Assembly: GCF_014696355.1 (NCBI RefSeq)
Contig: NZ_JACJQA010000014.1
Span: 1 to 64,000 of the forward strand
Length of the DNA stretch: 64,000 nucleotides
Direction of reading: 5' to 3'
Origin: Pseudanabaena sp. FACHB-1998
GTDB lineage: Bacteria > Cyanobacteriota > Cyanobacteriia > Pseudanabaenales > Pseudanabaenaceae
Shown here one piece after another: positions 44,462 to 50,864 of this stretch. Made by a program: the position numbers and the translations under genes. Under the pieces are notes generated by a model that had not been told where the DNA came from, ran no database searches, and was given only the letters and a program-made list of their open reading frames with translations. Position 1 is the first letter of the stretch, and each line of letters begins with the position of its first letter.

Positions 44462-45685
44462 ATGCTGCCTAGCGAACTTCTGATGCATCGACTGAATGGC
44501 GAAACCGTCATTCCCAAAAGATTGAAATTGGATGATCAACATCAGGCGATCGCTAGGGTATTAATTGCCATTTTTGAAAGTTGCAAAGGTAAGCCTCAAA
44601 GTGAACTTGATCGCCAATTGCAAGAACTAGAAGGTGATACGCCTGATTATCGCGTAAAGCGGGGATTAGCGCATATTCTCAAATCTAGCTTTAGCACCTT
44701 TGAAATTATTAGTCCATTAGAACCGCAGGAATTGCGCCGCCGCGTCTTTGAACTGTCGGCTCAAGTTATTCCCAGTCAACAAGCTACTGGCGAAACGTTA
44801 GAGAAACTTGCGGATAAACTTACTCAAGAACTCAATCGCGAAGTACTTCCTTCTCAAATTACTCAAGGGCTGTATGCAGATCTGATGGAGAATCGGATTC
44901 TGACGCAATTTGATACACCAACTACTGAAGACTTAATCCATCGCTATAACCTCTCGCAGGTACAAGGGATTTTTTATCGCGCTAGTCACATGACTCTCAA
45001 TGTGCATCGCAATGACCCGGGGGAATATAAACTTCTCTTTCGCTATCTCAAGCTTTTTCAATTAATGTCCTATATCGAGGGCGATGTTGATTATGGCTTT
45101 ACGATTACCGTGGATGGCGCGACTAGTTTATTTGGCACAAGTACACGCTATGGACTAGCGATCGCCAAACTTCTCCCTGCTTTACTCCATGTTACTAAAT
45201 GGAGCCTAAATGCCACCCTTGTCGAAAAAGATGCGTATTCAAAACAAAAGCGTACAGGTCTATTTACCCTCAATTCAGACTGTGGCTTAGTCAGCCATTA
45301 TCCTGCGGGTAAAATGTATGACAGTGCGCTTGAAGCCTCCTTTGCAGAAAAATGGGCAGATTTAAAAACGGAATGGAAATTAGAAAGAGAAGTAGATTTA
45401 ATTCCTATTCCCGGAAGCGTGATGATTCCTGATTTTCGGTTAGTGCATCCTGACGGGCGGAGTTACTTATTAGAGATCGTTGGGTATTGGCGACCTGAAT
45501 ATTTACGCAAGAAGTTTTCGCAGGTAAGGCTGGCTAATTGTGAAAATTTAATTTTGGCAATTTCCGAGCGTCTAAATCTCGAAAAAGCAGGTGTAAAGGT
45601 GAGCGATACACCTGCTCTCACAGTTTGGTTCAAAGACAAGCTTTTACCAAAGTCAGTTTTGCAAGTAATTCCATCAGAAACCTAG
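44462..45685 (+). CDS. DUF790 family nuclease (Bax1-like)
   Basis: 407 residues. DUF790 proteins include archaeal Bax1, a nuclease that works with the XPB helicase, and bacterial relatives often found next to such helicases. Here the N-terminal region binds the family's LPSELLMHRLNGE start. The C-terminal part carries a PD-(D/E)XK-like core: acidic FAEKWADLKTEWKLERE, then IPDFRLVHPDG and LLEIVGYWRPEYLRKK. No helicase gene is adjacent. The next gene is a possible Rad52-like protein, so a DNA repair role is reasonable. Start ATG 44462. Confidence 0.8.
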   Translation: MLPSELLMHRLNGETVIPKRLKLDDQHQAIARVLIAIFESCKGKPQSELDRQLQELEGDTPDYRVKRGLAHILKSSFSTFEIISPLEPQELRRRVFELSAQVIPSQQATGETLEKLADKLTQELNREVLPSQITQGLYADLMENRILTQFDTPTTEDLIHRYNLSQVQGIFYRASHMTLNVHRNDPGEYKLLFRYLKLFQLMSYIEGDVDYGFTITVDGATSLFGTSTRYGLAIAKLLPALLHVTKWSLNATLVEKDAYSKQKRTGLFTLNSDCGLVSHYPAGKMYDSALEASFAEKWADLKTEWKLEREVDLIPIPGSVMIPDFRLVHPDGRSYLLEIVGYWRPEYLRKKFSQVRLANCENLILAISERLNLEKAGVKVSDTPALTVWFKDKLLPKSVLQVIPSET

Positions 45686-46614: not shown

Positions 46615-48162
46615 ATGGATACAGCAAGTCTCAATGCTCTACTCAATAGTGGCGCGATTTTGCCAGAACTAATTGTCATTGGGACATTGGTACTTGTGCT
46701 AGTCGTCGATCTAATTGCATCGGGGCGCAAGTCGGCAAATGTTCTCCCCTATATTGCGATCGCTGGTTTAGTCGCAGTCACCGCTGCCCTTGTGTGGCAA
46801 TGGACAAGCTTAGAAAATCCGATCGCCTTCTTGGGCAGTTTTAATAGCGACAAACTCAGCATTATTTTTCGTGGCATTATTGCCCTATCGGCTCTATTTA
46901 CGATCCTCGTTTCAGTACGTTATCTAGAGCAGTCAGGCGTAGTAGTGGGCGAGTATCTCGTAATTTTGCTCAGTGCTACCCTCGGCGGGATGTTCCTCAC
47001 TGGCTCCGACGAAATGGTGATGGTATTTGTCTCCCTTGAAACCCTGAGTATTTCGTCTTACTTGCTATCGGGTTACACCAAACGCGATCCACGCTCCAAT
47101 GAAGCAGCGCTGAAATATTTGTTAGTCGGTGCGGCAAGCTCAGCAATTTTCCTTTATGGCATGTCCTTGCTCTACGGACTCTCAGGCGGCGAAACTTCTC
47201 TGTCCGCGATCGCCTCAAAGATCACCGTTAGCAACACAGCCCTCATCATCTCGATGGTATTTGTGATTGCAGGGGTTTCCTTTAAGCTCTCCGCAGTACC
47301 TTTTCACCAATGGACACCTGACGTTTACGAAGGTTCGCCTACGCCTGTAGTTGCCTTTTTGTCGATTGGCTCTAAGGTAGCTGGCTTCGGACTAGCGCTC
47401 AGATTTTTGATTACCGCGTTTCCTCTGGCTTCGCTGCAATGGCATTACGTGTTTGTCGTATTGACCATTTTGAGTATGGTCTTGGGTAATGTGGTCGCGA
47501 TCGCTCAAACCAGCATGAAGCGGATGTTGGCTTACTCCTCCATCGGTCAAGCAGGATTTGTAATGCTCGGCATGGCGATCGACTCCGAAGCAGGTTACGC
47601 CAGCATGATCTTTTACTTGATCCTGTATCTATTCATGAACATGGGTGCATTTGCCTGTGTGATCCTGTTTGCATCCCGCACAGGAACCGATCAAATCAGT
47701 GAATACAGTGGCTTGTACCAAAAAGATCCTTTGCTCACCCTCGCCTTGAGTGTATGCCTCCTCTCGCTTGGTGGTATTCCTCCCCTCGCAGGTTTCTTTG
47801 GTAAGCTCTACATTTTCTGGGCAGGTTGGCAAGCTCAAGCTTACGGCTTGGTCTTATTAGCGCTAGTCATGAGCGTAGTTTCTCTCTATTACTACATCCG
47901 CGTCGTCAAGATGATGGTAGTTAAGGAGCCTCAAGAAATGTCTGCTTCGATCAAGAACTATCCAGCGATCGCATGGACTCAAGTAGGTATGAAGCCTCTC
48001 CAAGCAGCGATCGTCTTTACGCTAATCTTCACAGCGATCGCTGGTATTGCATCTAACCCTCTCTTCTCTCTATCCAATCAAGCTGTAAAAGAAACCCAGT
48101 TTCTTCAAGCTAAAGCTCCAAATGCAAAATCAGTAGCAGTGTTAACAACAACTGCACCGTAA
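46615..48162 (+). CDS. ndhB: NAD(P)H-quinone oxidoreductase subunit 2
   Basis: Proton-pumping membrane subunit of the NDH-1 complex used in respiration, cyclic electron flow and CO2 uptake. 515 residues with about 14 helices. Conserved segments: [41 protein letters not shown], the helix with [37 protein letters not shown] and [18 protein letters not shown]. Key lysines are in these helices. Single gene, as usual for cyanobacterial ndhB. Start ATG 46615. Confidence 0.97.
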
Positions 48163-48174
48163 ATGGCACTATAT

Positions 48175-48212
48175 AAAAAGTAAGGGGAGTATTTCGCTCC
48201 CCTTACTTTTTT
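48175..48212. terminator. Bidirectional terminator between ndhB and the HEPN-like gene
   Basis: AAAAAGTAAGGGGAG pairs with CTCCCCTTACTTTTT around TATTTCG; the HEPN-like stop is at its edge. Confidence 0.8.
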
Positions 48213-48870
48213 ACGAAGATTGCAAAATAACTTTGATTTCAAACAAGGTTGAAATAACTGTCGAAACTTTACCAACAAGATCCATATACTCCTCCCTATT
48301 AACTTCGCGCTCTTCACCGTCTAAGGATGCATGAGCAGCTTTGTTTCGTATTTCTCCAAGTTCCTCTACCTGAGAAGACTCCCTCCCAAGTTTTGCCCTA
48401 ATAGTATTCTTGTCCTTAATTTCTAATTTTCCAATTTGTTCATTACAAGCTTTGTAGAGTTGTCGGTTAGGTAAAGGTCTTTCACGAGACTGCTTTTGAG
48501 TGGTATTTTGCTTTGGTATAACTAAAATATCTACTGCATCTGCTAAACCTTTTATGCAGTTCAAAAGCCTCTTGATGCCATTATCCAAATGACCTTGAGC
48601 AATTATTACTTGTGCTACCTTGATCTCGTCTCCTATGTGGTCAAGCTGACTTAATCCAGAAACAGATACAGATATACCGAGCAGTGTAGCAGTGCTATAA
48701 ATACTAGCCTCAACTGCTCGACCAAGACGTAAAGCGGACTCAGTATAAAATCCATGTTCTAAAAGAGCTTGCGATTTCTGTAGCTCACGATAAACTGCTA
48801 TATCTAATTTTTCAGCTTGACTTAGAATACCTTGCAAAGCTTTTATCTCTTCTGGTAAGTTCTCAGGCAT
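48211..48870 (-). CDS. HEPN-like protein, partner of an adjoining nuclease
   Basis: 219 residues from ATG 48870, which overlaps the stop of the upstream nuclease gene by 8 bp; a longer frame from 48990 would only retranslate that gene in another frame. The protein is helical. ALLEHGFYTESALRLGRAVEAS looks like a DUF4145/HEPN first helix. Near the C-terminus EIRNKAAHAS has Arg175, Asn176 and His180, the R-x4-H signature of HEPN ribonucleases. A long variable charged region lies at about 118-170. HEPN proteins are common toxins in anti-phage and toxin-antitoxin modules. No HIP1 site occurs here. Assignment is by motif. Confidence 0.6.
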   Translation of the reverse strand: MPENLPEEIKALQGILSQAEKLDIAVYRELQKSQALLEHGFYTESALRLGRAVEASIYSTATLLGISVSVSGLSQLDHIGDEIKVAQVIIAQGHLDNGIKRLLNCIKGLADAVDILVIPKQNTTQKQSRERPLPNRQLYKACNEQIGKLEIKDKNTIRAKLGRESSQVEELGEIRNKAAHASLDGEEREVNREEYMDLVGKVSTVISTLFEIKVILQSS

Positions 48871-49975
48871 AAACTTTTGCAATTCGCTCGTAGAAAACTT
48901 CTCTTTCTTCCAAAATAAACTCCATAAAGAGAGGTCGTTTTTTGGCAAAATCCCAAGGTAAAACTGTCCAGCCCGCAGATTCCAACACATTTATAAAATA
49001 AGTTGACGACTTATTATCTTCACTTTTTTCTAACAGCATAACCAGATCATCAACTTTATTCTCCGACAAAGCTCTAATCATCCACGCATCTGAAATTAGC
49101 TGTCTAGCCCGATTATTTTTGTATTGGAAATCGAATGCAAAAAGAACTTGAATAGCTACAACTCTGCCATAAGGAGACCTCCAAATAATTGGTTTAGGTA
49201 AAGGCAACTTATATTGTGACCAATGTTCAGAAATTTTATATTCTTCGAGTTCACCACCAAATTTCCTTATTTCATTTTTAATTACCTCTTTAAAACCTTG
49301 TTTAAATTTTGGTAACAATCTGAGAGTTTGAACGTTATTGATTTTGATATCAGGGTTACGCCCCAATTTCCGTTCTCTATCAATAGATAAACAATCTTCT
49401 GATAATTTTCTCAATTGTTCTGCAATATTGTCATTAGGAAAAGGCTCATCTTGCAAAAAGCTAGAAAGATTGAGTGAATTCTCCCACATGGTTTCCACTT
49501 CTTGAGAATCAGTTATGTGAAAATCTATAGACTCACCTCTTTTTAAAATATCTTGAACTAACTCATTAAGCTTGATTGACTCCCTAAACTGATGAAAGCT
49601 AGGCAGATTTTCGCCATCAATAACATCGTCAAAGAACAAAAAATTACGCTCGACATCGAATTGAGGTATTTCTCCAATCGGTTCACCTTCTTGACTTGTG
49701 ACGGCAACGACTGGCATATAGCGCCCATATTGACTAGCAAGATTAATTCGTTGTGCCAATATATCTTTTTGTTTAAATTGCCAAAAGAACTGGCTAAACC
49801 ATTTAACCTCTATGACCATTAAAAAGGGTTCAATTATGAGGAAATCTACAGGTGAGCTTCCAAGTGCAATTGGCTTTTTATCCTCAATAAACTTAACTCC
49901 AGAATCAATGAGCCACTCACGTACTCGGATCTTAAGCTCTTTGCGAATTTCTATTTTCTTTGTTGTGTACTTCAT
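48863..49975 (-). CDS. PD-(D/E)XK nuclease-like protein, unknown system
   Basis: 370 residues. The N-terminal domain has the restriction-nuclease pattern: a leading helix (RKELKIRVREWLIDSG), Asp44 in SSPVDFLII, then Glu56 and Lys58 in MVIEVKWF (D...E-x-K). A helix follows with DILAQRINLASQYGR. The C-terminal half (about 230-370) is not recognised; it has RSPYGRVVAIQVLFAFDFQYKN and ends in a helix EEREVFYERIAKVYA. The gene overlaps the HEPN-like gene and is divergent from a toxin-antitoxin pair. HIP1 is absent and base composition is AT-rich, signs of acquired DNA. Probably a defence gene, but this is inference. Confidence 0.6.
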   Translation of the reverse strand: MKYTTKKIEIRKELKIRVREWLIDSGVKFIEDKKPIALGSSPVDFLIIEPFLMVIEVKWFSQFFWQFKQKDILAQRINLASQYGRYMPVVAVTSQEGEPIGEIPQFDVERNFLFFDDVIDGENLPSFHQFRESIKLNELVQDILKRGESIDFHITDSQEVETMWENSLNLSSFLQDEPFPNDNIAEQLRKLSEDCLSIDRERKLGRNPDIKINNVQTLRLLPKFKQGFKEVIKNEIRKFGGELEEYKISEHWSQYKLPLPKPIIWRSPYGRVVAIQVLFAFDFQYKNNRARQLISDAWMIRALSENKVDDLVMLLEKSEDNKSSTYFINVLESAGWTVLPWDFAKKRPLFMEFILEEREVFYERIAKVYA

Positions 49976-50172
49976 ATACCCATATCCTCATTTTGTAATT
50001 GAGAGTAGGCGAGGAGTCTAAAGAGACGAAAGATTATGAATTTACTTTTTAGATTTTTTCTGTAGATACTATAGCAGTCTGGAATAGGAGTTTCACCAAA
50101 AACTTTAATAATGAATTTTTAAGGCAATCACGACTGAGCTAAGATATTATTCACATAGAAGAGGCAATACCT

Positions 50173-50508
50173 ATGCTTTTAGAAGACTATTTCGATTTTC
50201 TAAGCCCAGATGACATCCGCATCAAAGGTCATCGTATTGGCATCCAAGATGTCATCAAATACTACTTAAGCGGCTATAGTCCCGAAGACATTTTAGAAGA
50301 ATTGCCAAGCTTAAATTTAGAAAAAATCTATGCCGTAATTACCTATTATTGGCGTAATCGCGCTCAAGTTGATGAGTATATGTTCTGCCTAGAGCAGTTA
50401 CAGGAACAACACTATCAAGAATGGCTAAAGAAAGAACCATCAGAAGTAATCGCAAGATTGCGAGCAAATAGAGAGCAGACAAAAAAGAAATGGTTACTCA
50501 TCTCATGA
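50173..50508 (+). CDS. DUF433-domain antitoxin
   Basis: 111 residues. DUF433 is a small winged-helix domain (about 10-65: DIRIKGHRIGIQDVIKYYLSGYSPEDILEE has the family's R-I-x-G-x-R-I core), followed by a helical extension. In cyanobacteria such genes sit just before DUF5615 PIN-like genes as toxin-antitoxin pairs. The next start codon overlaps its stop (ATGA). It probably binds its own promoter. Confidence 0.88.
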   Translation: MLLEDYFDFLSPDDIRIKGHRIGIQDVIKYYLSGYSPEDILEELPSLNLEKIYAVITYYWRNRAQVDEYMFCLEQLQEQHYQEWLKKEPSEVIARLRANREQTKKKWLLIS

Positions 50509-50864
50509 AAATACGCTTTTTACTTGACGAAAATCTTCCGCCAAAGTTGAAATCTGCACTATTAAGGCTTAACCCCAAAATAGATATCATGCGAGTCGGT
50601 GAAGAAAATATGCCAACTTTAGGAACACTCGATCCTGAAATTCTCATCTATTTAGAAATGTCAAAAAGATTATTGATCACTGATAATCGAAAAAGTATGC
50701 CTTCACACTTAGACGATCATTGGTCATCAGGTAGACACACTTGGGGATTATTTTGGTTGCGTCCAAACCTGCCTCTCAGCAAAGCCGCTGAAGAATTAAA
50801 TCTGATTTGGGAAGTTTCTGAAGCTGAGGAATGGATCGATAAAATAGGTTGGATTCCTTTTTAA
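50505..50864 (+). CDS. DUF5615 PIN-like toxin
   Basis: 119 residues from ATG 50505, overlapping the antitoxin stop by 4 bp. A PIN-like fold starts IRFLLDENLPPKL with the catalytic-type Asp-Glu, then VITDNRK-like LLITDNRKSMPSHLDDH. The family is thought to be an RNase toxin. An upstream start (50490) is possible but less natural given the ATGA overlap. Confidence 0.85.
   Translation: MKIRFLLDENLPPKLKSALLRLNPKIDIMRVGEENMPTLGTLDPEILIYLEMSKRLLITDNRKSMPSHLDDHWSSGRHTWGLFWLRPNLPLSKAAEELNLIWEVSEAEEWIDKIGWIPF

Follow-up and report, generated by a model that had tools for sequence, protein, structure and literature searches.

The window analyzed here is a 64-kb stretch of the 4.78-Mb genome of a Pseudanabaena strain (G000). 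Beside the conserved core gene ndhB, it carries two overlapping genes encoding a putative PD-(D/E)XK nuclease and a putative HEPN ribonuclease, which we refer to as NUC and HEPN (Table 1). The pair converges on ndhB and diverges from a neighboring DUF433/DUF5615 pair. Both open reading frames are present where the original prediction had placed them, and its 8-bp overlap is exact (ATGCCTGA); the start codon of HEPN (ATG, 48868–48870) lies inside it, and this arrangement implies that expression of the two genes would be coupled. An alternative in-frame ATG at 48990 would extend HEPN to 259 aa; residue numbers below refer to the ATG at 48870. A second copy of the pair occurs in the MAG JADBWK (Pseudanabaena M085S1SP2A07QC; G027, locus L003), where an equivalent hairpin of different sequence occupies the place of the one between HEPN and ndhB (-18.7 kcal/mol, z -4.7). 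Both promoter-like hexamers facing NUC are identical in that locus; such matches occur across the region at chance level, so the promoter candidate is tentative.

Table 1. Features of the locus around the NUC-HEPN pair, in window coordinates
Feature	Coordinates	Strand	Evidence or remark
ndhB, conserved core gene anchoring the variable site	46615..48162	+	92-99% identical in 24 further Pseudanabaena genomes
Terminator-like hairpin, 15 bp, T tails on both strands	48177..48211	-	Between converging HEPN and ndhB; -22.2 kcal/mol, z -7.0
HEPN, putative HEPN ribonuclease, 219 aa	48211..48870	-	R175-N-K-A-A-H180; PF18735 match below cut-off
NUC/HEPN overlap, 8 bp	48863..48870	-	TGA, NUC stop; ATG, HEPN start
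NUC, putative PD-(D/E)XK nuclease, 370 aa	48863..49975	-	ORF; motif D44, E56, K58 in N-terminal ~130 aa
Promoter-like GTGAAA-17-TATAGT, TG before -10, facing NUC	50068..50096	-	Tentative
DUF433 antitoxin-like gene, neighbor of the pair	50173..50508	+	DUF433, E=1.7e-12
DUF5615 PIN-like toxin gene, neighbor of the pair	50490..50864	+	DUF5615, E=2.5e-5, just over cut-off

We regard membership of the second protein in the HEPN superfamily, as originally predicted, to be established by its sequence. It matches the RiboL-PSP-like profile PF18735 over residues 143–211 (23.3 bits, E=6.6e-5), as does the corresponding fragment in G027 (27.6 bits, E=6.2e-6); because these significant matches sit under Pfam's curated cut-off of 28.4 bits, we do not file the protein in that subfamily. 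The predicted R175-N-K-A-A-H180 is indeed present and conforms to an R-x4-6-H motif in which the arginine is followed by a polar residue, a described feature of HEPN proteins (Anantharaman et al. 2013, PMC3710099). The same RNKAAH is kept in G027 although the aligned half of HEPN is only 64% identical, and the predicted protein is likely to be catalytically active.

For NUC, the nuclease assignment is probable. The stretch DFLIIEPFLMVIEVK (residues 44–58) contains the predicted D44, E56 and K58 as a D...(D/E)-x-K arrangement between hydrophobic strands. A strict form of this pattern, D-hhh-x(1-14)-hhh-E-h-K, arose in 31 of 5000 shuffles of NUC (0.6%). It also occurred in 10 of 483 background ORFs, namely NUC and nine others, eight of them with a REase fold and one a false positive; this background is not a random sample, because loci with AHJR-HEPN fusions were fetched through their HEPN part. 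We take the eight to comprise seven AHJR-like proteins, an assignment checked against Pfam for one member, and one protein that reads as Uma2-like. NUC had no significant match in Pfam, NCBIfam, PADLOC, PHROGs or the PDB, and its separated domains hit no profile when the threshold was relaxed to E<=10. AlphaFold2 run without an alignment returned pLDDT values of 33 for the whole protein and 36 for residues 1–150, and these models were left out of fold searches. The claim of a PD-(D/E)XK nuclease is therefore supported by a motif that is rare by chance and by its context, but stays at probable because profiles are silent and the alignment-free structure prediction scores low. The C-terminal ~170 aa are strongly conserved in G027. 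A duplicated nuclease domain in this half looked plausible by eye but gained no support from statistics (p 0.29–0.53).

Three further elements of the original prediction concern the surroundings. The divergent toxin-antitoxin genes are present as DUF433/DUF5615, but they lie outside the NUC-HEPN module, because DUF433 and its remnants are found at the ndhB site in genomes without the pair; we regard them as belonging to this site throughout the genus rather than to the pair, and rejected them as a component of the system. The DNA is AT-rich as claimed: GC content at the pair is 36.4% against 42.8% for the whole window, a value equally low in 3.7% of equal-sized windows. The absence of HIP1 sites was likewise correct in fact, with no GCGATCGC between 48034 and 50921. 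As a mark of foreign DNA it failed, however: with 112 sites in 64 kb, 49% of random placements contain a gap this long or longer, so the gap is not significant and gives no evidence of foreign origin. On the other side of ndhB, upstream and adjoining argC, the window encodes a DUF790 protein (44462–45685; E=1.9e-153) near which we noticed no helicase; the DUF790 family comprises REase-fold partners of XPB-like helicases.

The stretch after ndhB varies among 22 further Pseudanabaena genomes (loci L039–L058, L163 and L164). Its contents include three AbiJ-type Abi_C HEPN proteins, a DarT-macro (DarTG) fusion, an Abi_2/HEPN protein, PD-T4-5, two HNH proteins, a DUF559-type REase, PemK, BrnT, ParE, PIN toxins, MazF-type proteins and repeated DUF433 remnants. 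A nuclease, HEPN or toxin effector is the first or second gene after ndhB in about 10 of the 22, and about 7 have core genes only. As a control, the region downstream of argC in 20 genomes held core genes for the most part, thiL-like ones included, besides two BrnT matches, one to YoeB and others that were homing-endonuclease-like; this single site is a limited control, yet the contrast with the ndhB site is large. Four RtcR-like matches in the argC set, which also contains four Mg-chelatase AAA proteins, were taken as cross-matches. Judged by these gene contents, Pseudanabaena has a defense hotspot downstream of ndhB throughout the genus. One fusion protein of 391 aa in L043 (5887–7059, minus strand) joins DarT to a DarG-like macro domain.

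We searched for NUC in 38, 386 and 390 genomes at the level of order, phylum and class (overlapping sets, ~600 distinct genomes) and for HEPN in 37 and 390 genomes. G027 alone among the ~600 cyanobacterial genomes was another carrier of the pair, and searches of genome contigs, viral contigs, plasmids and phages found no NUC or HEPN homologues beyond it. One weak partial HEPN match came from G107 (E=1e-3), and seven weak NUC matches that we inspected (E 0.01–1), among them aspartyl-tRNA synthetases and a peptidase, were discarded as chance. A survey of homologues for co-occurrence, proposed earlier as a check, thus finds the pair in two genomes, at one orthologous site and with one copy broken, which amounts to n=2 at a single site.

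The broken copy is that of G027. There, the C-terminal half of HEPN directly follows ndhB and is itself followed by an IS66-like element; ~18 kb away, the N-terminal half of HEPN, NUC and DUF433 lie beside an ISAs1-like element, both labels being our reading of the transposase sequences. NUC carries an internal deletion and a frame break. The simplest reading of this arrangement would be that both copies descend from a single cassette at this site, which was later broken in G027, and the break is possibly an assembly artifact of the MAG. Relocation of the whole cassette to a new locus was dropped, because the C-terminal half of HEPN still adjoins ndhB. Past the ISAs1-like element, an unrelated open stretch (ENTFVLDRKSHLEPTLIRML...) starts at L003 7900–8040, possibly the end of another gene cut by that element.

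Comparison of the two genomes, in which short alignments make all dN/dS and dS values rough, gave dN/dS of 0.044 for ndhB, 0.084 for the NUC C terminus, 0.23 for DUF433, and 0.16 and 0.24 for the two parts of HEPN, values which indicate that both NUC and HEPN were under purifying selection. Values of dS were 0.71 for ndhB, 0.20 for both NUC and DUF433, and 1.16 and 1.07 for the HEPN parts. Identity drops from 95.1% on the NUC side to 74.4% on the HEPN side. The best change-point, with a gain of 22.9 log units, falls at 48863 (2-unit interval 48845–48871), the base with which the NUC stop codon ends. Because synonymous sites differ too, the break points to different histories of the two genes. 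In this one genome pair, either recent exchange of a DUF433-NUC block or replacement of the HEPN partner would account for it, the join lying where the two genes meet. We consider it rather improbable that the locus represents a modular two-nuclease immune system of swappable-effector design outside the catalogued systems, in which a new nuclease family (370 aa, with an orphan C-terminal recognition domain) would stay near-constant and the HEPN RNase would be exchanged at the 8-bp overlap.

The original description of the pair as undescribed is confirmed by its absence from every library searched: neither protein matched a PADLOC 2.0 model at E<=1, and neither had a match in PHROGs, plasmids or phages. 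Its theme is nevertheless known. Associations and fusions of REases with HEPN domains have been published, including DUF4145-REase and PrrC beside PrrI (Anantharaman et al. 2013, PMC3710099). As in those, where the link is an operon or a fusion, a putative HEPN RNase accompanies a putative restriction-type DNase, and a DNase-first, RNase-second logic is expected; unlike them, the pair here is stand-alone, with neither methylase nor helicase, NUC matches no REase family named so far, and the RiboL-PSP-like character of HEPN is weak. CoCoNuTs, which are type IV restriction systems, can likewise join PD-(D/E)xK-type and HEPN nucleases at one defense locus (PMC11090510), but they carry a McrB-like GTPase, CnuC, a helicase and coiled coils, none of which adjoin NUC-HEPN.

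Within cyanobacteria, several genomes encode fusions of a REase_AHJR-like domain (PF18743) with HEPN, 224–230 aa long and in most cases immediately following a RusA-like gene (L090–L094, L096, L097, L099 and L103). These resemble our pair in combining a PD-(D/E)XK domain, which is putative in NUC, with a C-terminal HEPN that matches PF18735 weakly (e.g., L092); they differ in being one short fused protein with other neighbors, and NUC has no significant similarity to their REase part. The AbiJ/Abi_C abortive-infection proteins are also HEPN effectors, and three related genomes carry them at this very site next to ndhB, but AbiJ, which has an N-terminal domain of its own, consists of one protein and lacks a partner nuclease. 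In two cyanobacteria (L106 and L107), a HEPN gene lies between, and closely packed with or overlapping, genes that we read from their sequences as DUF262-like and DNA cytosine methylase-like. The best reading of these comparisons is that NUC-HEPN falls within the known REase-HEPN theme and that what is new is an uncatalogued gene pair.

Because related species keep swapping antivirus genes at this spot, NUC-HEPN is probably a rare, uncatalogued phage-defense pair. The earlier claim of a two-component defense system gains from the location in the ndhB hotspot, but no defense-system model matched. Patchy presence among ~600 cyanobacteria and recent decay in G027 also count for a defense role; that the pair adjoins no methylase or known sensor, which would explain self/non-self discrimination, counts against it. 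By eye, we recognized no methylase among the ORFs of 30–64 kb (a library scan covered part of them), and hence no cognate DNA methyltransferase of the kind that marks Type II restriction-modification. Both parts are ordinary defense ingredients, since among 21 new defense systems from a functional screen in E. coli, 11 contained components that bind or cleave DNA, often remotely similar to PD(D/E)XK, and six had remote HEPN similarity (PMC9519451).

We give about an even chance to a more specific proposal, a two-gene, translationally coupled, methylase-free phage-defense module with a DNase as first line and a HEPN RNase as second. HEPN RNases as inhibited back-ups to DNases have been proposed for HEPN proteins linked to restriction enzymes (PMC3710099). 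Here we infer nuclease activity, complex formation, HEPN release and an antiphage effect as follows. NUC would bind invading DNA that is modified or has a structure read by its C-terminal domain, and would cut it, while keeping the co-translated HEPN inactive within a complex. Once NUC was engaged or overwhelmed, HEPN would be released and would cleave tRNA or mRNA, so that translation would stop and the infection would be aborted. With no methylase in sight, NUC would need modified or otherwise distinctive DNA, or activation by infection.

The many toxin-antitoxin pairs at the ndhB site, and the presence of a toxin signature in one of two co-translated genes, would also fit a toxin-antitoxin-like unit serving stress response or addiction rather than restriction, with HEPN as RNase toxin and NUC as chiefly its neutralizer and sensor, whose nuclease core would be regulatory or no more than a DNA-binding remnant. 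We think this unlikely, as NUC is large (370 aa), retains intact catalytic-looking residues and matches no antitoxin family, and HEPN antitoxins are, to our knowledge, small MNT-type proteins. Differing divergence and a break at the gene boundary show that NUC and HEPN are separately heritable, as would be expected if restriction of a type IV/Mrr-like kind were the work of NUC alone and HEPN were either a coupled passenger or a binding subunit without catalytic activity; the purifying selection on HEPN, its retained catalytic motif and the coupled expression implied by the overlap make this doubtful. An absence of any defense role, with the genes serving DNA repair or housekeeping or being decaying selfish DNA without present function, is similarly improbable: the sole other copy is broken and repair proteins also carry REase folds, but patchiness speaks against housekeeping, and the hotspot context and the intact, low-dN/dS ORFs of the window also count against this reading.

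If the NUC-HEPN pair is defensive, cyanobacterial immunity would gain an orphan nuclease and a DNase-plus-RNase pair that operates without a methylase. The identity break at the gene boundary suggests that an effector may be exchanged with its partner nuclease kept. The ndhB site offers a defined, genus-wide place in Pseudanabaena in which to seek more uncatalogued systems.
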